32,209 bases of DNA from Bacteroidales bacterium (GTDB lineage Bacteria; Bacteroidota; Bacteroidia; Bacteroidales; UBA932). Below, piece after piece: positions 1,685 to 27,849 of this stretch. The stretch's first letter is position 1; each line of letters starts with the position of its first letter. The notes beneath the pieces were generated by a model. It was not told where the DNA came from. It made no database searches and saw only the letters and a list, made by a program, of their open reading frames with translations. The stretch covers positions 1-32,209 of the forward strand of contig JAFUWZ010000019.1 of the NCBI GenBank assembly GCA_017471045.1, given 5' to 3'. Both the position numbers and the translations under genes were made by a program.

Positions 1685-4528
1685 TTGGACAAGACTGGCA
1701 ACATCATCATAAAAGGGGCGAAAGTCAACAACCTCAAAAACATCACGGTGGAAATCCCGCGCGGGAAGTTCGTCGTCATCACGGGCGTATCCGGATCCGG
1801 CAAATCATCCCTGGCGTTCGATACCTTGTTTGCCGAGGGCCAGCGGCGATTCGCCGAGAGTCTCTCTTCCTATGCGCGGCAGTTCCTGGGAAGGATGAGC
1901 AAACCGGACGTGGAAGCCCTGGAGGGCATCCCGCCCGCCATCGCGATCGAGCAGAAGGTCAACACGAAGAATCCCCGCTCGACCGTGGCCACCACTACGG
2001 AAATCTACGACTCGCTGCGGCTGATCTTCGCGCGGATCGGACGCACCTATTCCCCCGTCAGCGGTCGGGAAGTCCGGCGCCACAGCGCCAAGGACGTGAT
2101 GGATTTCATCACGGAGGGCGCGCCAGACACGGTTTACATCCTCGCTGACCTGGGATGGAAGGAGCGTGAAGACAAGGTCGAACTGATGCTTGCGCTCAAG
2201 GAGCAGGGCTACTCGCGTTTCTACAGCGAAGGCGTGATCCGCATCGAGGAGATGATGCAGCACGCGGAGAGCAGCGACTGGCCGGACGAACTGTACCTGC
2301 TCGTGGACCGGCTCCGCCTGGGCGGAGAGGCCCCGGATGCGGATACCCGCACCCGGCTGCTGGCTTCGATCAGCGACGCCTTCGAGACCGGAAAGGGATC
2401 GCTTCTGGTCGTCAAGGACGGTCAGAAGCGCGCTTTCTGCAGCCGCTTCGAACTGGACGGCATCACCTTCCGCGAGCCGGACGAGTATCTCTTCAGTTTC
2501 AACTCGCCGCTGGGCGCCTGCCCCACCTGCGGCGGTCTCGGGAAGATCATCGGCATCAGCGAGGACCTCGTCATCCCGGACAAGACCAAGAGCATCTATG
2601 ACGGTGCGATCGCACCCTGGCGCGGAGAGAAGATGGGCTGGTTCAAGGACCATCTCATCGAGGTCGCCGGCCTGTACGGCATCCCCATCTTCGAGCCCTG
2701 GTGCAAACTCTCCCACGAAGTCAAGGAAAAGATCTGGAAAGGCGTCAAGGCCCCTACCGAGGAGGAGACTCTTTTCGGCATCGACGAATTCTTCAAATGG
2801 GTCGAGGCCAACCGATACAAGATCCAGTACAAATACATGCTCAGCCGTTTCAGCGGACGCACCGTCTGCCACGACTGCGGCGGCAGCCGGCTGCGCAAGG
2901 AAGCGCTTTGGGTCCGCGTGGGCGGCAAGACCATCCACGAGCTGCTGGAAATGAATGTGGATGAGCTGCTCTCGTTCTTCGATACGGTCAAACTGACGCC
3001 GACGGAGCGCGACATCGTCGCCGAACCGGTCAAGGAGATCGTCTTCCGGCTGCGATGCATCCGCGACGTGGGCCTGTCATACCTGACGCTCTCACGGAGC
3101 TGCAACACCCTTTCCGGCGGTGAAAGCCAGCGCATCAACCTCGTAACCGCGCTCGGCAGCTCGCTGGTCGGATCGATGTACATCCTCGATGAGCCGTCCA
3201 TCGGCCTGCATCCGCGCGACACCGACCGCCTGATCGCCGTGCTGCGGCGTCTGCGGGACATCGGCAACACGGTGGTCGTCGTGGAGCACGACGAAGAGAT
3301 CATCCGGGCCGCAGACGTCCTGATCGACATGGGTCCGCTGGCCGGCATCCATGGCGGCGAAATCATCTTCCAGGGCCGTACCGACGACCCCATCCCGGAC
3401 GGGACCTATGAGCGCTCGCTGACCCTGCAGTATATCAGCGGCCGAAAAGCGCGCATGGGCCGGGAGAAACGCAAGTGGCACTACTCCATCACCGTGAAGG
3501 GGGCGATGGAGCACAACCTCAAGGATATCGACGTCCGTTTCCCGCTGGGGGCCCTCACCGTCGTCACGGGTGTCAGCGGCAGCGGCAAGTCCTCCCTCGT
3601 GGGCGACATCCTCTACCCCGCCCTGCGCCGCAAGATCAACGAGTCCGGCGATCTCCCCGGCCTGTTCAAGGGGCTGGAAGGCAACGTCGACCGCATCGAC
3701 CGCATCGAATACGTGGACCAGAATCCCATCGGAAAGAGCACGCGATCCAACGCCGTGACCTACCTTAAGGTGTACGACGACATCCGCAAGCTCCTCGCCG
3801 AACAGCAATTTGCCAAGATCAACGGATTCACGCCCTCCTATTTCTCCTTCAACCAGGACGGCGGACGCTGTCCCGAGTGCCAGGGAGACGGCGTGGTGAA
3901 GATCCCGATGCAATTTATGGCGGATGTGACGATGGTATGCGAAGCCTGCGGCGGCAAGCGCTTCCGCAGCGACATCCTGGAGGTCCGATACAACGGGCTC
4001 AACGTGGACGACATCCTCAACCTCAGCGTCGAGGAGGCGATCACCTTTTTCGCCGCCGGCAAGGAGGACGCCGCCCAGGCCATCGCCCGGAAGTTGCAGC
4101 CCCTCGTGGACGTCGGGCTGGGATATATCAAACTCGGACAGAGCAGCAGCACCTTCAGCGGCGGCGAAAGCCAGCGTATCAAACTCGCCTACTTCCTGTC
4201 GATGAGCGTACAGAGCGGCCGGAGCGCCCATGAGCGCATCCTCTTCCTGTTCGACGAGCCCACGACCGGCTTGCATTTCTACGATGTAGAAAAGCTGCTC
4301 AAGGCCTTCGACGTCCTGCTTGACAAAGGGCACTCCCTGGTGGTCGTCGAGCACAACCTGGATGTGATCCGCGCCGCGGACTGGGTCATCGACCTGGGTC
4401 CCGACGCCGGTGAGAACGGCGGCGAAGTCGTTTTCGCCGGGACGCCGGAGGACCTGGCCGCCCGGGGCGGCACTTTTACAGCACAGTATTTGAAACAAAC
4501 GGAACGAAATGGCATTCCACCTCGATAG
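1685..4528 (+). CDS. uvrA: Excinuclease ABC subunit A (UvrA)
   Basis: UvrA is the damage-recognition ATPase of nucleotide excision repair; it works as a dimer with UvrB in the cytoplasm. At 947 residues it has the usual length. Two ABC modules are complete: Walker A GVSGSGKS at 34-41 and again near 629-636, and signature motifs LSGGESQR at 476-483 and FSGGESQR at 824-831, each followed by a DEP Walker B and a VVEHD/VVEHN switch. Zinc-binding pairs are visible at C279/C282 with C395/C398 and at C729/C732 with C752/C755. The start is TTG at 1685: an in-frame TGA at 1670 closes the frame just upstream, and the conserved N-terminal strand (IIIKGAKVNNLKNI) begins a few codons later. The nearby ATG at 1669 is out of frame. 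The 3' end overlaps legB by 20 bases, so repair and sugar genes are probably read on one transcript. Confidence 0.96.
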   Translation: MDKTGNIIIKGAKVNNLKNITVEIPRGKFVVITGVSGSGKSSLAFDTLFAEGQRRFAESLSSYARQFLGRMSKPDVEALEGIPPAIAIEQKVNTKNPRSTVATTTEIYDSLRLIFARIGRTYSPVSGREVRRHSAKDVMDFITEGAPDTVYILADLGWKEREDKVELMLALKEQGYSRFYSEGVIRIEEMMQHAESSDWPDELYLLVDRLRLGGEAPDADTRTRLLASISDAFETGKGSLLVVKDGQKRAFCSRFELDGITFREPDEYLFSFNSPLGACPTCGGLGKIIGISEDLVIPDKTKSIYDGAIAPWRGEKMGWFKDHLIEVAGLYGIPIFEPWCKLSHEVKEKIWKGVKAPTEEETLFGIDEFFKWVEANRYKIQYKYMLSRFSGRTVCHDCGGSRLRKEALWVRVGGKTIHELLEMNVDELLSFFDTVKLTPTERDIVAEPVKEIVFRLRCIRDVGLSYLTLSRSCNTLSGGESQRINLVTALGSSLVGSMYILDEPSIGLHPRDTDRLIAVLRRLRDIGNTVVVVEHDEEIIRAADVLIDMGPLAGIHGGEIIFQGRTDDPIPDGTYERSLTLQYISGRKARMGREKRKWHYSITVKGAMEHNLKDIDVRFPLGALTVVTGVSGSGKSSLVGDILYPALRRKINESGDLPGLFKGLEGNVDRIDRIEYVDQNPIGKSTRSNAVTYLKVYDDIRKLLAEQQFAKINGFTPSYFSFNQDGGRCPECQGDGVVKIPMQFMADVTMVCEACGGKRFRSDILEVRYNGLNVDDILNLSVEEAITFFAAGKEDAAQAIARKLQPLVDVGLGYIKLGQSSSTFSGGESQRIKLAYFLSMSVQSGRSAHERILFLFDEPTTGLHFYDVEKLLKAFDVLLDKGHSLVVVEHNLDVIRAADWVIDLGPDAGENGGEVVFAGTPEDLAARGGTFTAQYLKQTERNGIPPR

Positions 4529-5720
4529 ATTCATCGCGCAAAACATCACCGGACGGCCGCAGAGCCTTTTCTCCGCGGACTTGGTCCGCCATTCCGACGA
4601 ATTGAAAGCCCTGATCGCCGGCCGGAAAGCCTGCGTGATCGGCGGCGCCGGCTCCATCGGTTCCGCCTTCATCAAGGAACTCCTCCGCTTCCGGCCCGCC
4701 TCCCTGGTAGTCGTGGATCTGAGCGAAAACGGCCTGGCGGAACTGACCCGTGACCTGCACAGCAGCGATGGCGTGACGGTTCCGCCCGACTACCGGACCT
4801 ATGCCCTGGACTTTGCCGATCCGATCTTCGGCGAGATTTTCCGCGAGGAAGGCGGTTTCGACATCGTCGCCAATTTTTCCGCCCACAAGCACGTGCGCAG
4901 CGAGAAGGACCGCCACTCGGTCCGCGCCCTGCTGCAGAACAATGACCTGAAGGCCCGCGGGCTGCTGGACCTGCTGTCCACATGCCCGCCCTCGCACTTT
5001 TTCTGCGTCTCGACCGACAAGGCGGCCGGTCCGGTCAATGTCATGGGCGCCAGCAAGCGCGTGATGGAAGACTTGATCATGGCTTACAAGGATCGTTTCA
5101 AGGTGACGACCGCCCGCTTCGCCAACGTAGCTTTTTCCAACGGTTCCTTGCCGGACAGCTGGATGCAACGCCTGCAGAAGAGACAGCCCCTGGTCGCACC
5201 CGATGATGTACTGCGCTATTTCGTTAGCCCGGAGGAGGCCGGACAGATCTGCCTGTTCGCCTGCATCATGGGCCGCAGCGGCGAGATCTTCTACCCCAAG
5301 CTCCGCCAGGAGCAGATGCGGACTTTCTCCGAGATCTGCGACCGTTTCCTGGAAGCGCAGGGCCTGGAGAAGGTCGCGCTCGGCAGCGAAGAAGAAGCCC
5401 GGCGCTACGCGGCCGCCATGCCGGAAGACAGCCGCCGCTGGCCGGTGTTCTATTCGCCCAGCGACACGACCGGAGAGAAGCCCTATGAGGAATTCCATGT
5501 CGCAGGCGAGCGGGTCGATGAAGGACGCTTCGCCAGCCTGGGCGTCATCGAAGAGAGCCCCCGCCGCTCCCGGGAAGAGGTTTTTGACTTCCTGCGGCGC
5601 CTGGAGACGATTTTTGCGGACCCGGCGTTCACCAAGGCGCAGGTCGTCGCAGCCCTGGAGGGATTCCTGCCCGACTTCCACCACGCGGAGAAGGGGCGCA
5701 ACCTGGACCAGAAAATGTAA
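4509..5720 (+). CDS. legB: GDP/UDP-GlcNAc 4,6-dehydratase of the legionaminic acid pathway (LegB-like)
   Basis: A 403-residue extended SDR of the polysaccharide-biosynthesis dehydratase group. It would remove water from a nucleotide-activated GlcNAc to give the 4-keto-6-deoxy sugar, the first committed step toward legionaminic acid. The NAD-binding GGAGSIG is at 45-51. The segment STDKAAGPVNVMGASKR carries the catalytic STDK and an MxxxK pair (M179, K183) in place of the usual YxxxK, as in PseB/FlaA1/WbpM-type dehydratases. The gene overlaps the end of uvrA and precedes legC by 9 bases. The legC, legG, legI, legF order downstream argues for LegB rather than PseB. The GDP-sugar preference is inferred from the PtmE-like gene at the end of the run, not from the protein itself. 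Confidence 0.88.
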   Translation: MAFHLDRFIAQNITGRPQSLFSADLVRHSDELKALIAGRKACVIGGAGSIGSAFIKELLRFRPASLVVVDLSENGLAELTRDLHSSDGVTVPPDYRTYALDFADPIFGEIFREEGGFDIVANFSAHKHVRSEKDRHSVRALLQNNDLKARGLLDLLSTCPPSHFFCVSTDKAAGPVNVMGASKRVMEDLIMAYKDRFKVTTARFANVAFSNGSLPDSWMQRLQKRQPLVAPDDVLRYFVSPEEAGQICLFACIMGRSGEIFYPKLRQEQMRTFSEICDRFLEAQGLEKVALGSEEEARRYAAAMPEDSRRWPVFYSPSDTTGEKPYEEFHVAGERVDEGRFASLGVIEESPRRSREEVFDFLRRLETIFADPAFTKAQVVAALEGFLPDFHHAEKGRNLDQKM

Positions 5721-5729
5721 CGGAAACAC

Positions 5730-6875
5730 ATGGATTACAAGGATATCACCGACTTCGTCCACCAACTCTACGGAACGGAAGACTTCGTTCCGCTCAGCGT
5801 GCCGCGTTTCGTCGGGAATGAGAAAAAATACCTGGAGGCGTGTATCGATTCGACTTACGTCTCCAGCGTCGGCCCTTTCGTGGACCGTTTTGAAGAAGAG
5901 ATCGCCTGCTACACCGGCGCTGTCCGGGCCGTGGTCTGCGTCAGCGGCACCAATGCCCTGCACATGGCCTTGCTCCTGGCCGGCGTGGAGCGCGGCGACG
6001 AGATCCTTACCCAGTCTCTGACTTTCATCGCGACCTGCAACGCCATCAGTTACATCGGCGCCCACCCCGTCTTCATCGACGTGGACCGGGAGACGCTGGG
6101 GCTCTCCCCCGACGCACTGGACGCCTGGCTGGAGAAATATGCCTTCCTTTCCCAGGGCGTCTGCCGCAACCGCCGCACCGGCCGCCGCATCCGGGCCTGC
6201 GTCCCGATGCACACCTTCGGCCATCCCGCCCGTATCGAAGAGATCGCCGCGGTCTGTGGGAAATGGGGCATCGAACTGGTCGAAGACGCCGCAGAGAGCA
6301 TCGGCAGCCGCTACCACGGCCGCCACACCGGCACTTTCGGCCGCATCGGCGCCCTGAGTTTCAACGGCAACAAGACCCTCACCACCGGCGGCGGCGGGAT
6401 GCTGCTTTTCAACGACCCCGAACTGGGTGCGCGCGCCAAGCACCTCACCACCCAGGCCAAGGTCCCGCACCGCTGGGAATTCCGCCACGACGAGATCGGC
6501 TACAATTACCGTATGCCCAACATCAATGCGGCCCTGGGCTGCGCCCAGTTGGAGAACCTGGACCGCATAATCGCAAGCAAGCGGGAAGTCGCCGCCGAAT
6601 ATAAGCGCTTCTTCGAAGGCCGGGACGGCTTCGCGTTCGTCTCCGAACCGGACGGCAGTTTCTCCAATTACTGGCTCAACGCCATCCTCCTCCCCTCCCG
6701 CGCGGAGCGTGAGGCCTTTCTCGAATACACCAACGACCACGGCGTCATGACCCGGCCCGTATGGGAACTCATGACCGACCTGCCGATGTTTGAAGGCTGT
6801 GAGCGGGACGCCCAGCGCAACACCCGCTTTCTGGCCGACCGCATCGTCAACCTCCCCAGCAGCCCCCGCGTATGA
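5730..6875 (+). CDS. legC: PLP-dependent aminotransferase, LegC family (DegT/DnrJ/EryC1)
   Basis: Expected to aminate the 4-keto sugar made by LegB, using glutamate as donor and PLP as cofactor. The 381 residues cover a complete fold-type I sugar aminotransferase. The PLP-binding lysine is K215 in SFNGNKTLTTGGGG, a form typical of the LegC subgroup. The preceding VEDAAESIGS provides the Asp that pairs with the pyridine nitrogen. The N-terminus has the usual P-x-FVGNE segment and a VSSVGPFVDRFE motif shared by the family. The stop codon overlaps the legG start (ATGA), so the two are translationally coupled. Confidence 0.9.
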   Translation: MDYKDITDFVHQLYGTEDFVPLSVPRFVGNEKKYLEACIDSTYVSSVGPFVDRFEEEIACYTGAVRAVVCVSGTNALHMALLLAGVERGDEILTQSLTFIATCNAISYIGAHPVFIDVDRETLGLSPDALDAWLEKYAFLSQGVCRNRRTGRRIRACVPMHTFGHPARIEEIAAVCGKWGIELVEDAAESIGSRYHGRHTGTFGRIGALSFNGNKTLTTGGGGMLLFNDPELGARAKHLTTQAKVPHRWEFRHDEIGYNYRMPNINAALGCAQLENLDRIIASKREVAAEYKRFFEGRDGFAFVSEPDGSFSNYWLNAILLPSRAEREAFLEYTNDHGVMTRPVWELMTDLPMFEGCERDAQRNTRFLADRIVNLPSSPRV

Positions 6876-7975
6876 AAAAGATTGCCGTCGTTACCTCCAC
6901 CCGGGCCGAATACGGCCTCCTGCGCTGGACCATCGAGGCCCTGCGGGCGGAGCCTTGTTTCGACGTGCAACTCCTTGTCACAGGGACGCACCTCAGTCCC
7001 GCATTCGGATGCACATGGCGCCAGATCGAGGCTGACGGCCTCCGCATCGACCGCAAGGTCGATTATCTCTCCGAGGATCGGAGCGATCTCGGCATCGCCC
7101 GGGAAATGGCCCTCTGCGGGCGGCTTTTCGCCGATGCCTTCGCCGAAATGCGTCCGGATCTCCTGCTGGTCTTGGGGGACCGCTACGAACTGCTCCCCAT
7201 CTGCGGCAGCGCATGGATCCTCGGCATCCCGATCGCCCACATCGCCGGCGGCGAGCACACCGAAGGGGCCTTGGACGAGCAGATCCGCAATGCCGTCACG
7301 ATGATGGCCTGGCTGCACTTCCCCAACAGTCCGGAAGCCGCGCAGGAGATCGCACGCATGCGCGGCAGTGCGGAGCACATCTTCGACGTGGGCGAGCCCT
7401 GCGTGGAGAACAGCCTGCGCCTCCCGCTCCCCTCCCGCGAAGCGCTCGCAGCGACGCTGGGCCTGGATCCCGCGAAACGATGGATCCTCGGCACCCTGCA
7501 TCCCGAGACGCGCCGCAGCCTCGCCTACAACCTGCAGATGGCCCGCAACTTCCTGGAGGCCCTGCTGGAGCGGGAAGGCTGTGAAATCATCCTGTCCGAG
7601 GCCAATGCGGATCCCGGCGGCGCAGAAATGAACGCCGTGTTCCGCGCCTGTTCCGACCCGCACCTGCACCTTTTCGCCTCGCTCGGACAACAGAACTACC
7701 TCGGCTTGATGGGAGAAGCCTGGTGCGTGGCCGGCAACTCATCGAGCGGCGTGATCGAGACCCCCCGCCTCGGCGTCCCGACCCTCAACGTCGGTGACCG
7801 GCAGAAGGGACGCCGGCTCAGCGCCAACATCCTGTCCTGCAGCGCCGATTCTGACAGCATCCGCAGCGCCCTCGACCGTGTGGGTCCGCGGCTCACCCCG
7901 GACCTGAGCTTCGGAGACGGACATACTTCCACCCGTATCGTCCAGCACATCAAAGACTATTTCCATGAATCCTGA
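6872..7975 (+). CDS. legG: Hydrolysing sugar-nucleotide 2-epimerase, LegG/NeuC type
   Basis: A 367-residue GT-B-fold enzyme of the UDP-GlcNAc 2-epimerase family. In the legionaminic route LegG releases GDP and inverts C-2, giving free 2,4-diamino-2,4,6-trideoxymannose in its N-acylated form. Motifs match the hydrolysing NeuC/LegG branch: TSTRAEYGLL at the N-terminus, GDRYELLP, HIAGGE, LGTLHPET and GNSSSGVIETP toward the C-terminus. It overlaps legC by 4 bases and the next gene by 11, consistent with a single coupled message. The substrate is inferred from context, because family members acting on UDP-GlcNAc look similar. Confidence 0.9.
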   Translation: MKKIAVVTSTRAEYGLLRWTIEALRAEPCFDVQLLVTGTHLSPAFGCTWRQIEADGLRIDRKVDYLSEDRSDLGIAREMALCGRLFADAFAEMRPDLLLVLGDRYELLPICGSAWILGIPIAHIAGGEHTEGALDEQIRNAVTMMAWLHFPNSPEAAQEIARMRGSAEHIFDVGEPCVENSLRLPLPSREALAATLGLDPAKRWILGTLHPETRRSLAYNLQMARNFLEALLEREGCEIILSEANADPGGAEMNAVFRACSDPHLHLFASLGQQNYLGLMGEAWCVAGNSSSGVIETPRLGVPTLNVGDRQKGRRLSANILSCSADSDSIRSALDRVGPRLTPDLSFGDGHTSTRIVQHIKDYFHES

Positions 7976-9110
7976 ATCCCTCCGCACACCATGCTTCGTG
8001 CTTGACGCCGATGCGCTCAAAGCCAACTACCAGGGCTTCGCCGAAGCGCTCGGGAAGCGGTTCAGGGCGCTGCGTGTCGCTTACTCGGTCAAGACCAACG
8101 CCCACCCGGCCGTGCTGGCCGTCTTGCGCGAAGCCGGCGCGGCGGCCGAAGTCGTCTCCGACACCGAATACAGGCTGGCCCGGGCCCTGGGCTTCGACGA
8201 CATCATTTTCAACGGCCCCATCAAGGGGGAAGCCTGCTTCCGGGAAGCGCTCCAGGCCGGGAGCGTCGTCAATATCGACAGCAAGCGGGAACTGGACTGG
8301 CTCGCCGGAATGCCGGCCGGGCACAGCGTTGCCGTCGGCCTGCGGGTCAACGTCTCCCTGCCGGAAGACGAGACGTTCAGCCGCTTCGGCTTCGACGGGC
8401 CGGAACTGGCCGCAGCTGTCGCCCGGATCCGAGAGATGCCGCATGTGCGCCTCGCCGGTATTCACCTGCACCGCACGTCCAAGAGCCGCAGCCTTGATGT
8501 CTACCGCACCCTTGCCGCCAAGGCGTCCGAGGTCATCCGGACTTTCGGTCTCAAACCTGCATACATCGACATCGGAGGGGGATTTTTCGGCAGCATGCCC
8601 GGCAAACCGGGCTTCGACGACTATGCCGCCGTCCTGGCGGAAGGACTCGAAGGCTGCCTCGGGGAAGAGACCCGTCTCATCGTCGAGCCGGGCAACGCCC
8701 TGATCGCCTCGCCGCTGACGATGTACGCCTCCGTCCTGGACACCAAAAGGATCGCCGGCGAGCGAGTCGTCGTATGCGATGCCAGCCGCAACGACATCGA
8801 CCCGTTCTTCCGCAAAACCGACTATTTCAAATTTTTCCCCGCCCTGGAGGAAGGCCGTCCCCGGGAAAACAGCCAGACCGTCGTCGGTTGCACCTGCCTG
8901 GAAAACGACCGCCTCTTCCACCTGACGGACGGGCCGCGCCTGGAAACCGGCGACCGGATCGGGTTCCGCTTCACCGGGGCTTATACGATGGCCCTCTCGC
9001 CCCTGTTCATCCGCTATTTTCCCCGGGTCTATGTCCTCGAAGACGGCGCCTGCCGCCTCGCTTTCGAAGAATGGGGCGCCCGACAATACCTGTCTGCTTA
9101 TGGAATATAA
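7965..9110 (+). CDS. LysA-like PLP-dependent decarboxylase/racemase-fold enzyme in the nonulosonic acid cluster
   Basis: A 381-residue fold-type III PLP enzyme (alanine racemase-like barrel plus C-terminal beta domain), related to diaminopimelate and ornithine decarboxylases. The PLP lysine is K43 in YSVKTN. The phosphate-binding glycine loop is DIGGGFFG. The catalytic CxxxD is C311/D315 in CLENDRL, and GAYT follows. Two features differ from canonical LysA: EPGR reads EPGN (E241, N244), and the HxH motif reads IHLHRTSKS. The substrate is therefore probably not diaminopimelate. Such enzymes make amines from basic or acidic amino acids. Its place between legG and the ATP-grasp gene, with 11-base overlaps on both sides, suggests it supplies a small amine or amino acid used to decorate the sugar. 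The reaction itself is not known. Confidence 0.8.
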   Translation: MNPESLRTPCFVLDADALKANYQGFAEALGKRFRALRVAYSVKTNAHPAVLAVLREAGAAAEVVSDTEYRLARALGFDDIIFNGPIKGEACFREALQAGSVVNIDSKRELDWLAGMPAGHSVAVGLRVNVSLPEDETFSRFGFDGPELAAAVARIREMPHVRLAGIHLHRTSKSRSLDVYRTLAAKASEVIRTFGLKPAYIDIGGGFFGSMPGKPGFDDYAAVLAEGLEGCLGEETRLIVEPGNALIASPLTMYASVLDTKRIAGERVVVCDASRNDIDPFFRKTDYFKFFPALEEGRPRENSQTVVGCTCLENDRLFHLTDGPRLETGDRIGFRFTGAYTMALSPLFIRYFPRVYVLEDGACRLAFEEWGARQYLSAYGI

Positions 9111-10098
9111 CCTCCTGTGCTGCAACGTGGGCCGCCGAGGCCGCCTGATGCTGGACTTCCGCAAGAGCCTGGCCGGGAAAGGACGGATCATCGGCACCGA
9201 CAACTGGTCGGTGGCGCCGGCCCTTTTTCTGGCCGACAAGATGTACATGGTCCCCAAAATCCATGACCCGGCCTACATGGAGGCCGTTTTCGACATCTGC
9301 AAGCGCGAGCGGATCAAGGCCGTCAGCTCCTTCATCGATCCCGAGATCGAACTGCTATCCGCGCATCGGGACAATTTCCTCGCCCGCGGCATCCTGCCGC
9401 TCTGCCCCACCGCCCGGACGGCGCACCTGTGCTTCGACAAATACGAAATGTTCCGCCACCTGCACAGCCACGGCGTCCGCACCGTCCTGACCTACCGGAC
9501 GCCCGAAGACTTCAAAGACGGTCTTTCGCGGGGTGAAATTGATTTCCCCGTCTTCATCAAGCCCGTCACCGGCAGCGGGAGCGTCGGGGCCCGGCGGGTG
9601 GATGACATGGAGACCTTGGAGGAACTCTTCAAGGAAGCCCGATTCGACTACATCATCCAGGAACTGATGCGCGAAGGCGACTGTGATGCAGATGTCTACG
9701 TGGACTGCATCTCCCATGAAGTCGTGTCCGTCTTCAGCAAACGCAAGATCGAGACCCGCATCGGAGGCGCCTCCAAGACCGTCAGCTTCAAGGATCCGGC
9801 CCTCTTCGACTTCGTCCGGGAAGTCTGCTCCGTCCTGGAACTCAGCGGGCCCTGCGACATGGACTTCTTCCTCAAGGACGGACAATACTGCCTGTCGGAG
9901 ATCAATCCCCGCTTCGGCGGAGCCTACCTGCATGCATACGGTGCCGGCGTTGACTTCATGCCGCTGATCCTGCGCAACATAGACGGACTGGCCAACGAGC
10001 CCGTCATCGGCCGCTACGACGAAGGTGTGCTAATGCTGATGTACGACGACGTCGTGATCACCCGCGAATCCGAACTGCTCAGAGACTACCATGAATAA
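9100..10098 (+). CDS. ATP-grasp ligase (carbamoyl-phosphate-synthase-like) in the nonulosonic acid cluster
   Basis: A 332-residue ATP-grasp protein. ATP-grasp enzymes activate a carboxylate as an acyl phosphate and join it to an amine or thiol. The ATG at 9100 is chosen because the preceding 23 codons lie inside the upstream gene in another frame and the conserved fold begins at CCNVGRRGR. The N-terminal pre-ATP-grasp domain spans about residues 1-105. The ATP-binding part has DFPVFIKPVTGSGSVG (the P-loop-like Lys and Gly-rich loop), IIQELM, and the metal-binding CDMDFFL with SEINPRFGGAY. Those last acidic and Asn residues are the usual Mg2+ ligands. The relatives are CarB/PylC-like rather than D-Ala ligase. 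Tight overlap with the LysA-like gene and legI makes a sugar-acylating role likely; the substrates are unknown. Confidence 0.82.
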   Translation: MEYNLLCCNVGRRGRLMLDFRKSLAGKGRIIGTDNWSVAPALFLADKMYMVPKIHDPAYMEAVFDICKRERIKAVSSFIDPEIELLSAHRDNFLARGILPLCPTARTAHLCFDKYEMFRHLHSHGVRTVLTYRTPEDFKDGLSRGEIDFPVFIKPVTGSGSVGARRVDDMETLEELFKEARFDYIIQELMREGDCDADVYVDCISHEVVSVFSKRKIETRIGGASKTVSFKDPALFDFVREVCSVLELSGPCDMDFFLKDGQYCLSEINPRFGGAYLHAYGAGVDFMPLILRNIDGLANEPVIGRYDEGVLMLMYDDVVITRESELLRDYHE

Positions 10099-11089
10099 GA
10101 CCTTTATCATCGCCGAGGCCGGCGTCAACCACAACGGGCGTCTCGACCTGGCTTTCCGGCTCTGCGATGCCGCCCGGGCCGCCGGAGCCGATGCCGTCAA
10201 GTTCCAGACCTGGGTCACGGAGAAAATCGTGACCGCGGACACGGCGATGGCCGGCTACCAGCAGCGCAACCTCGATTCTGACCAGAGCCAATACCGGATG
10301 TTGAAGGCCCTGGAGTTGAGTTATGCCCAGTTCGCCAAGATCAAACGCTATTGCGACACCCTGGGCATCACCTTTCTTTCGACCGGCGACAACCCGGAAG
10401 ACATTGATTTCCTGCTGGGACTGGGCATGCCCTGCATCAAGCTCGGATCCGGCGACATCACCAACATTCCCCTGCTGCGACACGTGGGCCGCTGCGCGCG
10501 TCCTGTGCTGCTCTCGACCGGCATGTCCGACCTGGAGCAAGTCCGCAGGGCCTACGGGACCCTGCGTGAAGCCGGCGCAAAGGATATCACCGTCCTTCAC
10601 TGCACGACCAACTATCCCTGTCCGCCCGAAGAAGTCAACCTGCGGGCCATGCAGACGCTCGCCCGCGAACTGGACTGCCCGGTCGGATACTCCGACCATA
10701 CGCTGGGCACGGAAGTGCCCGTCGCCGCGGTGGCGATAGGTGCCTGCGTGATCGAGAAACACCTTACCCTCGACCGGACGATGGAAGGGCCCGACCACCC
10801 GGCTTCGATGGAACCGGACGAATTCCACGAGATGGTACGGCAGATCCGCCACATCGAATCCGCCCTCGGGGACGGGATCAAGCGTCCCAACGACAGCGAA
10901 CGCGCCATCGCCGGATCCGTCCTCAAACGGATCGTGGCCCAGCGCGACATCCGGAAGGGCGAAGTGCTGGACGAGACCGTGCTGGCTGTCAAGCGCTCCC
11001 CCACCGGTCTGGGCGCCGACCGGTGGGATGAGGTATGCCACACCCGGGCCATCCGGGATTTTCACCAAGACGAAGCGATCGAAATATGA
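10091..11089 (+). CDS. legI: Nonulosonic acid synthase, LegI/NeuB family
   Basis: Condenses the 2,4-diamino-6-deoxymannose derivative with phosphoenolpyruvate to form the nine-carbon legionaminic acid. The 332 residues contain the NeuB TIM barrel followed by a C-terminal SAF (antifreeze-like) domain of about 55 residues (RDIRKGEVLDETVLAVKR). Barrel landmarks are EAGVNHNG, DAVKFQTW, KLGSGDITN, LSTGMSDLEQV, HCTTNYP, GYSDHTLG, and EKHLTLDRTMEGPDH, which carries metal- and phosphate-binding residues. It overlaps the ATP-grasp gene by 8 bases and legF by ATGA. LegI rather than NeuB or PseI is preferred because legB, legC and legG are present. Confidence 0.92.
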   Translation: MNKTFIIAEAGVNHNGRLDLAFRLCDAARAAGADAVKFQTWVTEKIVTADTAMAGYQQRNLDSDQSQYRMLKALELSYAQFAKIKRYCDTLGITFLSTGDNPEDIDFLLGLGMPCIKLGSGDITNIPLLRHVGRCARPVLLSTGMSDLEQVRRAYGTLREAGAKDITVLHCTTNYPCPPEEVNLRAMQTLARELDCPVGYSDHTLGTEVPVAAVAIGACVIEKHLTLDRTMEGPDHPASMEPDEFHEMVRQIRHIESALGDGIKRPNDSERAIAGSVLKRIVAQRDIRKGEVLDETVLAVKRSPTGLGADRWDEVCHTRAIRDFHQDEAIEI

Positions 11090-11808
11090 AGACACTCATC
11101 ACGATATGCGCCCGGGGCGGATCGAAAGGCATCCCCGGCAAGAACATCAAGCCCATTGCCGGCAAGCCCCTGATCGCCTACAGCATCGACTGCGCCCGCA
11201 AGGTCGGCGACGCCCTCCCGGGCGGGGCGGATATCCTCCTCTCGACGGACTCGGACGAGATCCGCGCCTGCGCGGCCCGATGGGGCCTGGAGAGCGACTA
11301 CCGGCGGCCGGCGCGCCTGGCGGAAGACCATTGTGCCAAGCTGGACGCCATTGCGGACGCCCTGGAATGGAGTGAAGCCCGCCAGGGCTGCCGTTACGAC
11401 TGTCTGCTGGACCTGGACTGTACTTCACCCCTGCGCACCGTCGATGACGTCCTGGAAGCTTTCCGCATTCTGGAGGGCGATCCGCAGGCCCTGGATATCT
11501 TTTCCGTCAGTCCGGCCTCCCGCAACCCCTATTTCAACATGGTGGAGCAGAATCCGTCCGGATACTACAGCCTGGTCAAGGACGGCAGCCGCTTCACGAC
11601 GCGCCAGAGCGCTCCGGCCGTCTATGATATGAACGCATCGTTCTACATCTACCGGCGCGCTTTCTTCGAGCAGGGCCTGCGCGACCCCAACACCTCCCGT
11701 TCGCTCGTCTATGTGATGCAGCATCGCTGCTTCGACCTCGACGAGCCCGTCGATTTCGAATTCATGCGTTTCCTGCTGGAGCAGCATAAACTGGGATTTG
11801 AGCTATGA
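11086..11808 (+). CDS. legF: CMP-nonulosonic acid (CMP-legionaminate) cytidylyltransferase
   Basis: Activates the free nonulosonic acid with CTP to the CMP-sugar used by glycosyltransferases. It has 240 residues; the ATG at 11086 overlaps the legI stop and begins right at the conserved core. Family motifs are ICARGGSKGIPGKNIKP (CTP-binding N-terminus), the LDLDCTSPLRTVDDV segment, and a C-terminal FDLDEPVDFEF in which Asp residues bind Mg2+. It resembles NeuA, LegF and PtmB; the assignment among these rests on the neighbouring genes. Overlap with the next gene is 4 bases. Confidence 0.9.
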   Translation: MKTLITICARGGSKGIPGKNIKPIAGKPLIAYSIDCARKVGDALPGGADILLSTDSDEIRACAARWGLESDYRRPARLAEDHCAKLDAIADALEWSEARQGCRYDCLLDLDCTSPLRTVDDVLEAFRILEGDPQALDIFSVSPASRNPYFNMVEQNPSGYYSLVKDGSRFTTRQSAPAVYDMNASFYIYRRAFFEQGLRDPNTSRSLVYVMQHRCFDLDEPVDFEFMRFLLEQHKLGFEL

Positions 11809-12713
11809 ACGTCTTGATCGTCGGCCTGGGCTCCATCGCCCGCAGGCACATCGCCGCCCTGCGGCACATCGACCCGGAGGCCGGAATCGTCGCCCTGCGC
11901 CACGACACGGCCGGCATCCCGCTGCCCGGTGTGCGGGATATCTATTCCCTGGACGAGATGGAGAGCCGTCCCGACTTCGCCATCATCTCCAATCCCACCG
12001 CCCTGCACGCGGAGACCATCCGCGCCCTGCTGCCGCTGCGCGTGCCGCTTTTCATCGAGAAACCCTTATTCGCAGGTCTTGGCCATGAGGACCTGCTGGA
12101 AGAGATCCGCCGGCTCGGCATCCTGACCTATGTGGCATGCAACATGCGCTTCCTGGACACCCTGCGCTGGCTGCGCGGGCAAGTCGAGGCGCTCCGGATC
12201 AACGAGGTCAACGTCTATTGCGGCTCGTATCTGCCGGATTGGCGCCCGGGCACGGACTGGCGCCGGTGCTACAGCGCCCGGACCGAACTCGGAGGCGGCG
12301 TCCACATCGACCTGATCCACGAGTTCGACTACATCCATTGGATCTTCGGTGATCCGCAGCAGGTGCGCAAGACGCTCCGGCATCGCTCCAGCCTCGGCAT
12401 CGGAGCCGTGGACTATGCCAATTACTGCCTGGAGTATGAGGATTTCTGCATCTCTGTGGTGCTCAATTACTACCGCCGCGACTACAAGCGCACCGTCGAA
12501 GTCGTCGCCGAAGAAGGTACCTGGACGGCGGACCTGGCCTCGGGACGCGTAACGGACGCGGACGGCCGGACGCTCTTCGAGAGCAGCCAGGACGATGACG
12601 AAGTCTATTGGGCGCAAATGAACTATTTCCTATCTTTGCTCCGGAAGGAGGCGCCCGCCTCTTCCAATGACGTATTTGAAGCCTACGAGGTATTGAAACT
12701 ATGCTTGGGATAA
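11805..12713 (+). CDS. Gfo/Idh/MocA-family oxidoreductase (PtmF-like position)
   Basis: A 302-residue NAD(P)-dependent oxidoreductase. The N-terminal Rossmann motif is VGLGSIARRH (residues 6-15). The EKP motif, FIEKPLFAG, is near 85-93. A GGGVHIDLIHEFDYIHWIFG segment provides the His pair of the Gfo/Idh active site. A similar oxidoreductase together with an SDR (PtmA) is found in the Campylobacter legionaminic locus, where these proteins help form GlcN-6-phosphate for the GDP-GlcNAc branch. That role is a reasonable guess here but is not shown by the sequence. It overlaps legF by 4 bases and the SDR gene by 13 bases. Confidence 0.8.
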   Translation: MNVLIVGLGSIARRHIAALRHIDPEAGIVALRHDTAGIPLPGVRDIYSLDEMESRPDFAIISNPTALHAETIRALLPLRVPLFIEKPLFAGLGHEDLLEEIRRLGILTYVACNMRFLDTLRWLRGQVEALRINEVNVYCGSYLPDWRPGTDWRRCYSARTELGGGVHIDLIHEFDYIHWIFGDPQQVRKTLRHRSSLGIGAVDYANYCLEYEDFCISVVLNYYRRDYKRTVEVVAEEGTWTADLASGRVTDADGRTLFESSQDDDEVYWAQMNYFLSLLRKEAPASSNDVFEAYEVLKLCLG

Positions 12714-13456
12714 AAGACAAAACCATCATCGTGACCGGGGGCTGCGGCCTGATCGGCCGGGAAATCGTGCGGGAACTCCATGAGGCGGGGGCCCGGGTGC
12801 TCAACGCCGACCTCACATTGGAGACCGACCCCGACGCGGGGACCTTCCACCTCGACCTGTCCGACAATGCCTCCATCGACGCCCTGGTCGCCTTTGCGAA
12901 GGAGCGCTTCGACCGGATCGACGCCTTGATCAACAGCGCTTACCCCCACACACGGGACTGGAGCGATTATTTCTTCGAAGACGAACCCTTCGAGCATTTC
13001 AAACGCAACGTCGAGCTCCAGCTCGACAGCGTCTTCTACCTCGACCAGCAGGTCGCGAAAGTGATGATGGAACAAAGAGGCGGCGCCATCGTCAACTTCG
13101 GATCCATCTACGGCATCGTCGGCAACAATTTCACCATTTACGAAGAATACGGCGGCACCTCCACGGGCGCCTATTGTGCCATCAAGGGCGGCATTATCAA
13201 TTTCACGCGCTACCTGGCCTCCTACCTCGGCAAATGGAACATCCGGGTCAACTGCGTCTCCCCCGGCGGCGTCTTCGACCGCAACAGCCCCGAGCAGAAC
13301 GAGATCTTTATCCGGAACTATACCCGCCAGTGCCCGATGAAACGGATGGCGGAGCCCGAAGACATCGCTCCCGTAGCGATCTTCCTGGCCTCCGACATGG
13401 CCCGCTATGTCACCGGGCAGAACGTGGCCGCCGACGGCGGATGGACCTGCATCTGA
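12701..13456 (+). CDS. ptmA: Short-chain dehydrogenase/reductase, PtmA-like
   Basis: A 251-residue classical SDR. NAD(P)-binding TGGCGLIGREI sits at 12-22. The catalytic set is S135 (NFGSIYG), Y158 and K162 (YCAIK), and the C-terminal NVAADGGWTCI is the usual SDR end. PtmA homologues belong to legionaminic acid loci that use GDP-GlcNAc, where they act early, before the nucleotidyltransferase. The adjacent Gfo/Idh gene and the CBS-nucleotidyltransferase fit that set. Gene overlap is 13 bases at the start, and only one base separates its stop from the next ATG. Other SDRs could look the same, so the name depends on context. Confidence 0.78.
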   Translation: MLGIKDKTIIVTGGCGLIGREIVRELHEAGARVLNADLTLETDPDAGTFHLDLSDNASIDALVAFAKERFDRIDALINSAYPHTRDWSDYFFEDEPFEHFKRNVELQLDSVFYLDQQVAKVMMEQRGGAIVNFGSIYGIVGNNFTIYEEYGGTSTGAYCAIKGGIINFTRYLASYLGKWNIRVNCVSPGGVFDRNSPEQNEIFIRNYTRQCPMKRMAEPEDIAPVAIFLASDMARYVTGQNVAADGGWTCI

Positions 13457-13457
13457 C

Positions 13458-14480
13458 ATGAAATACACGATCGATACCACCGCGAGCGTCCAGGACGCGC
13501 TCGCCCTGCTGGAGAGCAACGACATCCAGACCCTCTTCGTCACCGATGCCGAAGGGCACATGAAAGGGACCCTTTCTGACGGGGATGTCCGCCGGGGCAT
13601 GCTTGTCGGCGCCCGGATGGACAGTCCGGTCTCGGACGTGATGCACCGGGATTTCAAGTTCCTGCGCAAGGAAGCTTTCAGCGTCGCGGACATCAAGGCT
13701 TTCCGGGAGAAGCGTATCCTCTTCATCCCCATCCTGGACCGTGAGGACCGGATCGTCGATACCGTCAATCTGGTGCGGTACCGCTCGCGCCTTCCCCTCA
13801 CGGCCGTCCTGATGGCCGGAGGCAAGGGAGAACGGCTGCGTCCGCTGACGGAGCATACGCCCAAGCCTCTGCTTCCGGTCGGAGACAAGGCCATCATCGA
13901 CCACAACGTGGACCGGCTGCTCTCTTTCGGCATCCGAGACATCCATGTGACCGTCAATTACCTGGCCGGACAGATCGAGTCGCATTTTGCCGCGCCGCGC
14001 GACGGCGTCAGTCTGCATTGCCACCGTGAGCCCGCTTTCCTGGGCACGATCGGATCGTTGCGGCTCATCCCGGACCTCGCCGAAGACACGGTCCTGGTGA
14101 TGAACTCCGACCTCTTCACCAACATCGACATCGAGGATTTCTACCTGCATTTCCGGGAGCATGGCGCGGACCTGTCCGTCGCCGCCGTCCCCTACAACGT
14201 ATCCATCCCTTACGGCATCCTGGACCTGGACGGACGGGATGTGAAAGGGATCATCGAAAAACCGGTTTTCAATTACTACGTGGGGGCAGGCATCTATCTG
14301 ATGAAGAAATCCGTGATCAGAGAGATCCCGGAAGGGGAACGCTTCCACGCAACCGACCTGATCAGCCGCCTGATTGCCGGCGGGCGCAAGGTCATCCGCT
14401 ACCCGCTCAACGGGACCTGGATCGACATCGGCACCCTTCGGGAATACCAGAAAGCCAACGATCTGATCCGGCACCTGTAA
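13458..14480 (+). CDS. ptmE: CBS-domain nucleotidyltransferase, PtmE-like (glucosamine-1-phosphate guanylyltransferase)
   Basis: A 340-residue fusion of a tandem CBS domain (about 1-112) with a nucleotidyltransferase (about 115-340). The CBS part has TLFVTDAEGHMKGTLSDGD and FIPILDREDRIV, each a typical CBS strand pair that senses a nucleotide. The transferase signature GGKGERLRP is at 121-129, with TPKPLLPVG after it and a NSDLFTNID metal-binding Asp. PtmE of Campylobacter has this same architecture and makes GDP-GlcN for legionaminic acid. The ATG at 13458 follows the SDR stop by one base; earlier in-frame starts lie inside the SDR gene. It is the last gene of the cluster, followed by 79 bases with no strong terminator. 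Confidence 0.85.
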   Translation: MKYTIDTTASVQDALALLESNDIQTLFVTDAEGHMKGTLSDGDVRRGMLVGARMDSPVSDVMHRDFKFLRKEAFSVADIKAFREKRILFIPILDREDRIVDTVNLVRYRSRLPLTAVLMAGGKGERLRPLTEHTPKPLLPVGDKAIIDHNVDRLLSFGIRDIHVTVNYLAGQIESHFAAPRDGVSLHCHREPAFLGTIGSLRLIPDLAEDTVLVMNSDLFTNIDIEDFYLHFREHGADLSVAAVPYNVSIPYGILDLDGRDVKGIIEKPVFNYYVGAGIYLMKKSVIREIPEGERFHATDLISRLIAGGRKVIRYPLNGTWIDIGTLREYQKANDLIRHL

Positions 14481-14559
14481 AATTTCCGTTAACAAATACG
14501 GAAGATGTGCGTCCTATATCGGGCTCCGGTTCGGAGACCCGATGCAAACAACGTTGATC

Positions 14560-15063
14560 ATGAAAAGATTATTACTGATTGCCAGCCTGCTGCTCCTGAC
14601 ACTGCATCCTCTCGCGGGGGGCGGCATCTCCAAGACCCAGATGACATCCTTCCTGACCGACTGCCAGCGCTACGAAGGGGTGGAAGTCGTTCAACTCGGC
14701 GGTCTGGCAACCTTTGCGCTCCGGAGCGCTGTCAAAATCGCAGCCGCCGATGATCCCGAGACCCGCGAACTGCTGAAACTCATCAGGAGTATCAAACGCA
14801 TCTCCGTCATGGAGTACGAAGACTGCAAGCCTTCCGTCCGCGAGAAGATCACCCGCAAGCTGGACCGCATGCTCAGGGGCGCAGACCTGCTCATGGAGAC
14901 CAAGGACGGGACGGAGCGGATGCAGATCTACGGCGTCGTGGACGAGTCTGCCGGCACGGTCAAGGATTTCGTGCTCCACACGCCCGCCAGCGCTTCGCTG
15001 ATCTGCATTTTCGGATCCATTCCGATCGAGAAACTCACCAAGATCGCCGCCGAGAATGACTGA
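14560..15063 (+). CDS. DUF4252-type secreted protein, first copy
   Basis: A 167-residue protein with an N-terminal signal segment (MKRLLLIASLLLLTL) that has no lipobox Cys, so it is likely periplasmic. It resembles the DUF4252 proteins of Bacteroidetes: a helix with a FLTDCQRYEGVEVVQLGG strand, then LLKLIRSIKRISVMEYEDC, and a C-terminal LICIFGSIPIEKLTKIA. The function of the family is unknown. The ATG at 14560 is preferred over one six codons earlier because it begins the hydrophobic segment directly. It overlaps the sigma factor gene by 8 bases, so it is made together with it. A second, divergent copy closes the module at 15936. Confidence 0.75.
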   Translation: MKRLLLIASLLLLTLHPLAGGGISKTQMTSFLTDCQRYEGVEVVQLGGLATFALRSAVKIAAADDPETRELLKLIRSIKRISVMEYEDCKPSVREKITRKLDRMLRGADLLMETKDGTERMQIYGVVDESAGTVKDFVLHTPASASLICIFGSIPIEKLTKIAAEND

Positions 15064-15535
15064 GGCCCGGTTCCATACGGAGTATCTGTCCCTGTCCGCC
15101 ACGTTGTACCGGATCGCATGCTATATGCTCGAATCCGAGGTCGAGGCAGAAGATGCCGTTCAGGAACTGTATCTGAAACTCTGGGAGAGCCGGGACATGC
15201 TGGACGAGGTCCGCAACCCGAAGGCTTATGCCATCACCCTGCTCAAGAACCTCTGCCTCGACCGGCTGCGCAAAGCGCGCAAGCTCAGTTTCCCGGCACA
15301 GATGCCCGAGCCGGAAAGCCCGCATCGCCAAGACGAGGAGATGGACAGCAAGATGCGCCTCGACAAGGTCCTGGAGGCTGTCAAAGCCCTGCCGGACCGC
15401 CAGCGGGAGATCCTGCTCCTGCGTACCGTCGAAGGCCTCCCGTATGAAGAGATCGCCCGGCGGACCGGGATGAATTACCTGACCCTCCGCGTGTTGCTGT
15501 CCCGCGCACGCTCCACCTTAAAGAACCGGTTATGA
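15056..15535 (+). CDS. ECF-type RNA polymerase sigma factor
   Basis: A 159-residue sigma-70 family protein of extracytoplasmic-function size. Region 2 is visible as YRIACYMLESEVEAEDAVQE followed by LYLKLWE, the DNA-melting and -10 binding helices. Region 4 is LPDRQREILLLRTVEGLPYEEIARRTG with the recognition helix NYLTLRVLLSRARSTLKNRL. It lies between two DUF4252 genes and is overlapped by 4 bases by a small membrane protein, the usual arrangement for a sigma/anti-sigma pair. The signal and target promoters are unknown; autoregulation of this operon would be typical. Confidence 0.92.
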   Translation: MTEARFHTEYLSLSATLYRIACYMLESEVEAEDAVQELYLKLWESRDMLDEVRNPKAYAITLLKNLCLDRLRKARKLSFPAQMPEPESPHRQDEEMDSKMRLDKVLEAVKALPDRQREILLLRTVEGLPYEEIARRTGMNYLTLRVLLSRARSTLKNRL

Positions 15536-15939
15536 AGACGATAGAAGAATGGGAAAAACTCCGTTGGGAAGACCTGGAAGCCGCCGCTTCCGCGGAAAAG
15601 ATCCCCGTACCGAAAGGACTGGATGAGCGGATTGCCCTGACCCTGGCGGCCTTTTCCGCCAGCCGGGAGCACAGCGATGCCCGGCCGGCGCGCCGGCGCG
15701 CCGTGTCCGTTTCGGCCGTTGCCGCCGCTGCAGTCCTTTCCGCCCTGCTGGCCCTCCCCCGACTGTCCGTCCGGGAGCCCAAGGATACCTTCGACGACCC
15801 TTACCTGGCCTATGCCGCGGTGGAAAAAGCTTTCCAAAGCATCTCCCGTAAAATGAGCACCGGCCTCGAACTGGCCAAAGAGGTCCAGCCTACAGCCGAC
15901 AAGCCCCTCCATATCCTCGAAAAAATCAACAGACAATGA
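15532..15939 (+). CDS. Probable membrane anti-sigma factor
   Basis: A 135-residue protein coupled to the sigma gene by an ATGA overlap. Its cytoplasmic N-terminus (1-53) is rich in Glu and Arg. A single hydrophobic segment follows at about 57-74 (VSVSAVAAAAVLSALLAL), then a soluble C-terminal part likely in the periplasm. This N-in, single-span layout next to an ECF sigma gene is the basis for the call. There is no recognisable zinc-binding HxxxCxxC anti-sigma motif. The C-terminal half (AYAAVEKAFQSISRKM) is a helix of unknown role. The next gene, a DUF4252 protein, overlaps by 4 bases. Confidence 0.6.
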   Translation: MKTIEEWEKLRWEDLEAAASAEKIPVPKGLDERIALTLAAFSASREHSDARPARRRAVSVSAVAAAAVLSALLALPRLSVREPKDTFDDPYLAYAAVEKAFQSISRKMSTGLELAKEVQPTADKPLHILEKINRQ

Positions 15940-16424
15940 AACGCATATTGATCCTCGCAGCCGCCGCGCTGCTTTGCGCCTGGAGCGCATCCGCCCAGAG
16001 CGGGAAAAGCATCTACCAGAAGTATTCCGACGCGGAAAATGTCAGCGCCGTGTACATCTCCCCCGCCATGTTCCGTCTCATCGGAAAGATACCGGACCTG
16101 GAAGTCGGGGAGAGCCATGTCAACCTCGCGCCGCTCATCCGCTCCCTGTCCGGCCTCTACATCATCACCAGCGAGAACAGCCGGGTCAATAACAAGATGG
16201 TCTCCGAAGTCAACCATTTCATTTCCAGCGGCCGGTACGAACTGATGATGGAAGCCAAGGACGCCGGCGAAGTCGTACGGATGTATACGGTCGGCACTGA
16301 GAAACTCGTCAACAGCTTCGTCATGCTCTCGGCAGGAGGCTCCGAGACGACCTTCATTTGCCTCGACGGCCAGATGGACCGGCAGGAGCTGGAAGGCATC
16401 CTGGTCGAGACGATGAAAGACTGA
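15936..16424 (+). CDS. DUF4252-type secreted protein, second copy
   Basis: A 162-residue protein with a clear signal peptide (residues 1-21, ASAQ cleavage site). The mature part has DUF4252-like segments: YSDAENVSAVYISPAMFRLIG, LAPLIRSLSGLYIIT and TFICLDGQMDRQELEGIL. It shares layout with the first copy at 14560 but little exact sequence, so the duplication looks old. It is last in the four-gene sigma module and is followed by a strong hairpin. A periplasmic sensing role is possible but not shown. Confidence 0.78.
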   Translation: MKRILILAAAALLCAWSASAQSGKSIYQKYSDAENVSAVYISPAMFRLIGKIPDLEVGESHVNLAPLIRSLSGLYIITSENSRVNNKMVSEVNHFISSGRYELMMEAKDAGEVVRMYTVGTEKLVNSFVMLSAGGSETTFICLDGQMDRQELEGILVETMKD

Positions 16425-25917: not shown

Positions 25918-25952
25918 TTTCTATTTCCTGATGAGAGTTGATATCCCAATTG

Positions 25953-27029: not shown

Positions 27030-27044
27030 ATCAGAATCTGTATA

Positions 27045-27845: not shown

Positions 27846-27849
27846 GGCA

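Follow-up and report, generated by a model that had tools for sequence, protein, structure and literature searches.

Two adjacent genes in a sialic-acid-like sugar cluster, encoding a LysA-fold pyridoxal phosphate (PLP) enzyme and an ATP-grasp ligase, appear to take the place of the acetyltransferase LegH in a Bacteroidales bacterium (GenBank assembly GCA_017471045.1; 2.6 Mb, 73 contigs, 96% complete). The window, by which we mean the whole stretch of 32,209 nucleotides that was analysed, is the entire contig C1 (JAFUWZ010000019.1) of this assembly. We propose, with a probability of about one-half, that the pair acts as a swapped-in N-acylation module of nonulosonic acid (NulO) biosynthesis, in which the ligase would join an amino acid to the 4-amino sugar, and decarboxylation of that amino acid on the sugar would fall to the PLP enzyme. 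The observations beneath this proposal are the order of the genes, the lack of a NeuD-type LegH, the families to which the two proteins belong, the conservation of their catalytic residues and the swapping of the slot's contents across loci. Ten genes run head to tail from 4509 to 14480, encoding in order a dehydratase, LegC, LegG, the PLP enzyme, the ATP-grasp ligase, LegI, a LegF-like protein, a MocA-type oxidoreductase, a short-chain dehydrogenase/reductase (SDR) and a CBS-nucleotidyltransferase; the pair (PLP enzyme, 7965 to 9110; ligase, 9100 to 10098; both on the plus strand) makes up the two genes between LegG and LegI. The overlaps of 8 to 11 bases described in the initial annotation were measured as 11 bases between LegG (end at 7975) and the PLP enzyme gene, 11 between the members of the pair and 8 between the ligase gene and LegI (start at 10091), the ligase start methionine at 9100 having been picked by alignment with relatives in an open frame that begins at 9031. 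The further statement that the run has no N-acetyltransferase gene also stood, since none of the ten proteins was identified as an acetyltransferase in a Pfam and NCBIfam scan.

The case for replacement comes from what other clusters carry at this position. A sample of 393 genomes from the window's order yielded 60 LegC loci that scored over the model cut-off, the window's own being excluded, and we kept the 34 with LegI between 3 kb before and 8 kb after LegC, the other 26 being dropped. In 23 of the 34, a TIGR03570 (NeuD/PglD/LegH) gene of about 212 residues lies between LegC and LegI, all 23 matching at an E value of ≤1e-30; these are hexapeptide acetyltransferases, a family different from ATP-grasp. 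The slots of the remaining 11 loci, assigned to families from the scan of one representative each, hold another PRK12767-type ATP-grasp protein with a small HAD-like protein (six loci), a formyltransferase (two), FemAB-like proteins (two) or none of these (one), so that an acetyl- or formyltransferase occupies the slot in 25 of 34 comparison loci. No NeuD match was present in the slot of any of the 10 pair loci (the window and nine others), and the contrast of 23/34 with 0/10 gives a Fisher P value of 1.4e-4, a figure that ignores relatedness and compares sets obtained by different searches. The placement of the pair where LegH would be expected held up, and no LegH of the usual family was found elsewhere in the genome: the window assembly has no TIGR03570 protein over the cut-off of 160.8 (best score, 50.5 bits), a result that covers this model and not other acetyltransferase families, such as GNAT, which were not searched for. 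Because other loci hold a formyltransferase, FemAB-like proteins or another ATP-grasp protein there, the LegC-LegI slot seems to be where the choice of N-acyl group is made.

Some of the alternative occupants deserve a description of their own. The six ATP-grasp proteins (L106, L110, L115, L121, L124, and L131) are of a different kind from the window's ligase (26 to 28% identity) and are accompanied by a HAD-like protein of about 105 residues; that of L106 is closest to PRK12767.1-4, below cut-off, and no match to the PLP enzyme was found within these six clusters. FemAB-like proteins with a DegT-like neighbour lie between LegC and LegI in L109, L118, and L127, hinting at aminoacyl-tRNA-dependent acylation; those of L109 lie between LegG and LegI, which is precisely the position of the pair. 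Two of the 23 NeuD loci hold an extra gene, FemAB-like in L118 and formyltransferase-like in L157, and the slot of L127 contains one more protein besides.

The PLP enzyme (PF02784; Orn_Arg_deC_N, 1.3e-27) scores 133 bits against the LysA model TIGR01048, under the cut-off of 297.9, and the same genome encodes a separate, true LysA on contig C73 that scores 381 bits, over the cut-off; judged by sequence, the PLP enzyme is therefore not the cell's LysA. In a tree built from the 21 pair enzymes, 20 wider-phylum relatives and the five LysA-like proteins encoded in these genomes, a branch with support of 100/98 separates the pair enzymes from all the others. These results bear on the suggestion that the pair represents ordinary metabolism, namely, a lysine-pathway LysA and a carbamoyl phosphate synthase (CPS)-type gene lodged in the cluster by chance, for which the 133-bit TIGR01048 score and the ligase family name "carbamoyl phosphate synthase-like" could be cited. 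With a genuine LysA on C73, the pair enzymes in a single group and the cluster context kept in nine other loci, such a coincidence is scarcely credible, and we rejected the assignment of the two genes to LysA/CPS housekeeping on the TIGR01048 score, the C73 gene and the tree.

The hallmarks of an alanine racemase (AR)-fold PLP decarboxylase are all present: the PLP lysine, the GGG loop, the glutamate to the pyridine nitrogen and the catalytic cysteine, with K43, G204 to G206, E241, C311, and D315 invariant in an alignment of the 21 pair enzymes. The catalytic Cys311, Leu312, and Asp315 belong to a CLEND motif (8895 to 8909, plus strand). The position beside the cysteine is leucine in 20 of the 21 and methionine in one; it is methionine in the 20 phylum relatives and glutamate (CES[ST]D) in all five LysA-like proteins, of which the window genome's own was scored over TIGR01048 and the other four were labelled LysA without scoring. 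The top PDB match by profile is 7kh2 (195 bits), the N-citrylornithine decarboxylase FigC, which also ranks first in Foldseek for the predicted fold (predicted local distance difference test score, 88.5) at 25 to 26% identity, with BtrK lower in both lists. FigC Met355, at the same position beside the cysteine, replaces an aspartate that holds the side-chain amine, in an enzyme whose substrate is N-citrylornithine (PMC7857480), and in excerpts of the same article FigC is grouped with SbnH, AcsE, MccE, and BtrK. In the hydrophobic residue beside the cysteine the PLP enzyme resembles FigC, a conjugate decarboxylase, and we propose that it is an aminoacyl-sugar (or amino acid) decarboxylase. The initial annotation had instead pointed to EPGN (residues 241 to 244; 8685 to 8696, plus strand), a motif that is indeed there, with asparagine in 20 of the 21 enzymes and serine in one, as a sign of a nonstandard substrate. 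It is a weak one: the equivalent place in FigC, R290, contacts the PLP phosphate (PMC7857480, section 6), and LysA-like proteins of other genomes differ at it, L177 having EPGQ. On sequence grounds the substrate-side change is the leucine or methionine beside the catalytic cysteine, not EPGN.

Membership of the same fold group, with an Ala_racemase_N match of 3.3e-8, might also be read as the signature of an amino acid racemase or epimerase providing the ligase with a D-amino acid to attach, and the weak matches of the ligase to D-Ala ligases would suit such a route. The decarboxylase cysteine is nevertheless invariant in 21/21 sequences and the nearest folds listed are decarboxylases, which makes racemization very improbable. 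Among the wider-phylum sequences, the 20 LysA-like relatives (L003-L022, L034, L035) carry the motif CMNID or CMQID and at least 12 of them are adjoined by a distant ATP-grasp match; in L034 and L035, the two that were annotated, the domains that follow are urea-transporter-like and M23 peptidase.

The ligase combines PylC-like_N and ATP-grasp_3 domains and belongs to NF009406 (PRK12767.1-5; 455 bits, cut-off 271). Its fold resembles that of 2pn1 and, more remotely, those of L-amino-acid ligases and PylC, and we propose that it forms an amide with the 4-amino sugar. It occurs without the PLP enzyme in four loci (L053, L063, L064, and L066), in whose genomes, of unstated completeness, no pair-type PLP enzyme was found: L053 and L063 have no match at an E value of ≤1e-20, and L064 and L066 each have one protein, which carries the LysA-type motif. 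The ligase may therefore be able to use a carboxylate that is available without the PLP enzyme, and an order in which ligation comes first and trimming second is favoured. The reverse order, in which the PLP enzyme would decarboxylate a free amino acid to β-alanine, γ-aminobutyric acid (GABA) or a similar building block and the ligase would then attach the product to the 4-amino sugar, accords with the overlap of the two genes in a single run and with the use of free amino acids by other members of the fold group (ornithine and diaminopimelate decarboxylases). We consider it doubtful, as the closest relative, FigC, and the leucine or methionine beside Cys311 point to a conjugate substrate, and as the ligase-only loci indicate a ligase that does not always depend on the product of the PLP enzyme.

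For the preferred scheme, ligation followed by decarboxylation on the sugar, we infer the chemistry, the sequence of events, the identity of the amino acid and the N-4/N-7 site as follows. LegC would make a nucleoside diphosphate-4-amino-4,6-dideoxy sugar, to whose 4-amino group the ATP-grasp ligase would join a carboxylic acid at the expense of ATP, replacing the acetyl group that LegH adds. The donor would most likely be an amino acid with a second carboxylate, for example, glutamate or aspartate, since a decarboxylase beside an amide ligase is useful only if a carboxylate remains for the amide. The LysA-fold enzyme would then strip the free alpha-carboxylate from the sugar-bound amino acid to leave an omega-amino acyl arm, GABA- or beta-alanyl-like, and LegG, LegI, and LegF would proceed to a cytidine monophosphate (CMP)-nonulosonic acid with the arm at N-7. 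The idea that the pair builds and attaches a group is in keeping with the kinds of protein involved, an amide ligase and a decarboxylase; the accompanying suggestion that it makes an amine fits poorly, because a ligase acting on the amine of the sugar would need a carboxylate donor.

How far the pair travels with NulO genes was assessed by a scan of 84,980 species genomes for the ligase, which returned 27 loci; three were dropped (L067 to L069: 31%, a fragment, and 28%) and 24 kept. All but one of the 24 ligase relatives are in records named Bacteroidales or its families or genera. The exception, L065, is a "Clostridiales" metagenome-assembled genome whose sugar cluster contains a pair that has diverged (39% and 56%), which may reflect horizontal transfer or a binning error. 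In nine loci (L043 to L049, L051, and L052, the last being the complete genome of Phocaeicola vulgatus ATCC 8482), the pair lies in a NulO cluster, and since these nine further loci keep the order LegC-LegG-pair-LegI, with the pair reversed in L051, the association is more than chance. The ligase was found in one of 393 genomes of the order at an E value of ≤1e-90 and in two of 395 genomes of the class at 1e-40, one of these being the window's own, a rarity that makes an unbiased count of co-occurrence infeasible.

If the slot sets the acyl group, enzymes that act on the acylated sugar might be expected to be inherited with it. For 34 of the 44 loci in the LegI tree (L118, L156, and L157, with mixed or empty slots, and seven loci lacking a gene were left out), changes of slot-type label were counted on each gene tree, in a test devised after the first trees had been seen. 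LegI required five changes against a minimum of four, LegC and LegG eight each, the nucleoside triphosphate (NTP) transferase 10 and LegF 13. Of the five genes, LegI follows slot type best, and LegI, we presume, must bind the acylated sugar; LegC, acting before acylation, adjoins the slot in most comparison loci yet does not follow slot type.

Several findings weigh against the proposal. LegG, too, is expected to use the acylated sugar and follows slot type no better than LegC (eight changes each), which counts against a simple reading of co-inheritance, and the pair loci are related to one another, with two label changes on the LegI tree and three on the LegC tree. A role confined to NulO synthesis is contradicted by 15 of the 24 loci, which have no LegI in the DNA covered, four with the ligase alone and 11 with the pair (L050, L054 to L062, and L065), so that the pair's occurrence beside non-NulO sugar genes, a situation that the initial annotation had itself listed as counting against its reading, shows the module not to be NulO specific. 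In two of the 15, L061 and L066, NeuD lies directly beside the ligase, and in L054 it lies 6 to 9 kb away. A TIGR03570 protein over the cut-off is missing from nine of the 10 pair-NulO genomes, a count that takes in no other family, GNAT included, and the tenth, L051, has such a gene, which was not located in its NulO locus; the NulO cluster of L051 is, besides, immediately followed by another gene that resembles hexapeptide acetyltransferases, WbbJ most closely. Finally, the tightest structural relative of the ligase, 2pn1, is uncharacterised, and the proposal is drawn from sequence and predicted structure.

Part of this evidence could be marshalled for a different function, in which the pair decorates another amine or a carboxylate, for example, as a C-1 amide, and N-4 receives its acetyl group from an enzyme of a different family whose gene is unlinked. 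Occurrence of the pair or ligase in 15 non-NulO sugar loci, the two NeuD genes adjoining the ligase and the possibility of an unlinked GNAT-type enzyme, given that the LegH negative rests on TIGR03570, are all compatible with it. The lack of a TIGR03570 protein in nine of 10 pair-NulO genomes and the regular use of the slot for acetyl- or formyltransferases make it quite unlikely. All 15 non-NulO loci have an initiating sugar transferase (one being the source of the query), 10 have a match to the L059 aminotransferase, and their presence implies that the pair is a module that serves more than a single sugar pathway. NeuD stands between the ligase and the aminotransferase in L061, and L066 has the order initiating transferase, NeuD, aminotransferase and ligase, the last without the PLP enzyme, so there is no strict replacement of LegH in non-NulO clusters. 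Across 12 sampled loci of the non-NulO aminotransferase, contexts vary: several have the initiating transferase immediately ahead of it, and in L166 a distant ATP-grasp protein (27%) lies between the two. For the non-NulO loci we considered a bacillosamine-type pathway in which the pair stands in for PglD, a reading that was weakened by these varied contexts and by the NeuD genes of L061 and L066; for the same reasons we claim replacement for NulO clusters only.

With the N-acylation module as the preferred reading, we tentatively suggest that some gut Bacteroidales, including P. vulgatus ATCC 8482, may make a zwitterionic nonulosonic acid with an omega-aminoacyl arm at N-7, and that the slot may be an exchangeable cassette on which the charge of the surface sugar depends, the options at the LegC-LegI position being acetyl, formyl, aminoacyl and decarboxylated aminoacyl groups. 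If the arm ends in an amino group, a sialic mimic whose negative charge is offset would be presented to the host, a matter of relevance to commensal self-presentation. Chemical work has documented a diversity of N-acyl groups on bacterial sialic-acid-like sugars, and a slot with exchangeable acyl cassettes provides named genes, including those of a complete P. vulgatus genome.

The rest of the run, all on the plus strand, is largely that of a legionaminic-type cluster. LegC (4-aminotransferase, 5730 to 6875; TIGR04181, 544 bits, cut-off 420), LegG (LegG/NeuC hydrolysing 2-epimerase, 6872 to 7975; TIGR03568, 357 bits, cut-off 235.9), and LegI (LegI/NeuB NulO synthase, 10091 to 11089; TIGR03569, 436 bits, over cut-off) are as first annotated, whereas the supposed LegB is a 4,6-dehydratase of the PF02719 type in the LegB position (4509 to 5720; 6.5e-34) whose hits do not include the NCBI LegB model TIGR04180. 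The LegF-like CMP transferase (11086 to 11808; PF02348, 2e-12) scores 100 bits against the PseF model, below the cut-off of 205.7. It is followed by a Gfo/Idh/MocA oxidoreductase (11805 to 12713; PF01408 and PF22725), which we take to be PtmF-like and which was not seen in the pair loci L045, L049, L051, and L052, by a PtmA-like SDR oxidoreductase (12701 to 13456; NF050062, 155 bits, below the cut-off of 350), and by the CBS-nucleotidyltransferase (13458 to 14480; PF00571 and PF00483), presumably PtmE-like. Immediately downstream of the sugar run, a sigma-70 (ECF-like) factor gene is flanked by two DUF4252 genes (14542 to 16424), and the minus-strand interval 24586 to 28878 holds genes of the FimA fimbrial type and DUF4906 genes together with large neighbouring genes that lack any Pfam match, likely a fimbriae operon. 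We take the FimA, DUF4906, and DUF4252 proteins to be of a Bacteroidales type.

Among the matches listed in searches of openly licensed papers we found no description of the pair in NulO synthesis, and excerpts of an article on P. vulgatus (PMC13114119) mention sialic acid in connection with utilisation and do not mention legionaminic, neuB, or nonulosonic. Precedents for variable N-acyl groups appear in excerpts on Tannerella forsythia Pse5Am7Gra (PMC6388019) and on N-formyl-legionaminic acid in Halorubrum (PMC6137143), and for T. forsythia the modifying enzymes are said to be scarcely known (PMC6388019, section 10). ATP-grasp proteins have been encountered in other sugar clusters. The Shewanella sfm operon, a flagellin-modification cluster, includes an ATP-grasp_4 gene whose product was suggested to be a carboxylate-amine ligase. 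The Clostridium difficile type B flagellin glycan genes CDR20291_0244 (FemAB-like) and CDR20291_0245 (ATP-grasp) resemble the window in placing an ATP-grasp protein in a sugar cluster, and an ornithine cyclodeaminase homologue is present there. The cap consists of taurine, alanine, and glycine on Fuc3N; excerpts of PMC5207246 and PMC5207245 report that mutants in the ATP-grasp gene have no peptidylamido cap, from which its involvement in cap synthesis was predicted by the authors, and the word decarboxylase is absent from both papers.

The nearest known system as a whole is the CMP-legionaminic acid pathway (legBCHGIF) of Campylobacter jejuni and T. forsythia UB4, whose LegC, LegG, LegI, CTP transferase and PtmA-like gene recur in the window run. 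The PtmF- and PtmE-like genes are presumably shared with it as well. In contrast to that pathway, the window has no LegH, the ligase and decarboxylase-like pair standing there instead, and a PF02719 dehydratase in place of a TIGR04180 LegB. Butirosin biosynthesis employs an ATP-grasp ligase, BtrJ, together with the acyl carrier protein BtrI and a separate acyltransferase, neither of the last two being seen in the window run. BtrJ and BtrK are part of the set that adds an aminobutyryl group to an amino group of an aminoglycoside, according to excerpts of PMC11405602. The PLP enzyme itself differs from FigC in its 25 to 26% identity, its EPGN motif and its sugar-cluster context, and shares with FigC/FslC and the relatives SbnH, AcsE, MccE, and BtrK the AR fold, the catalytic cysteine and, on our reading, a conjugate-building partner, and with FigC a hydrophobic neighbour to that cysteine (Met355 in FigC).

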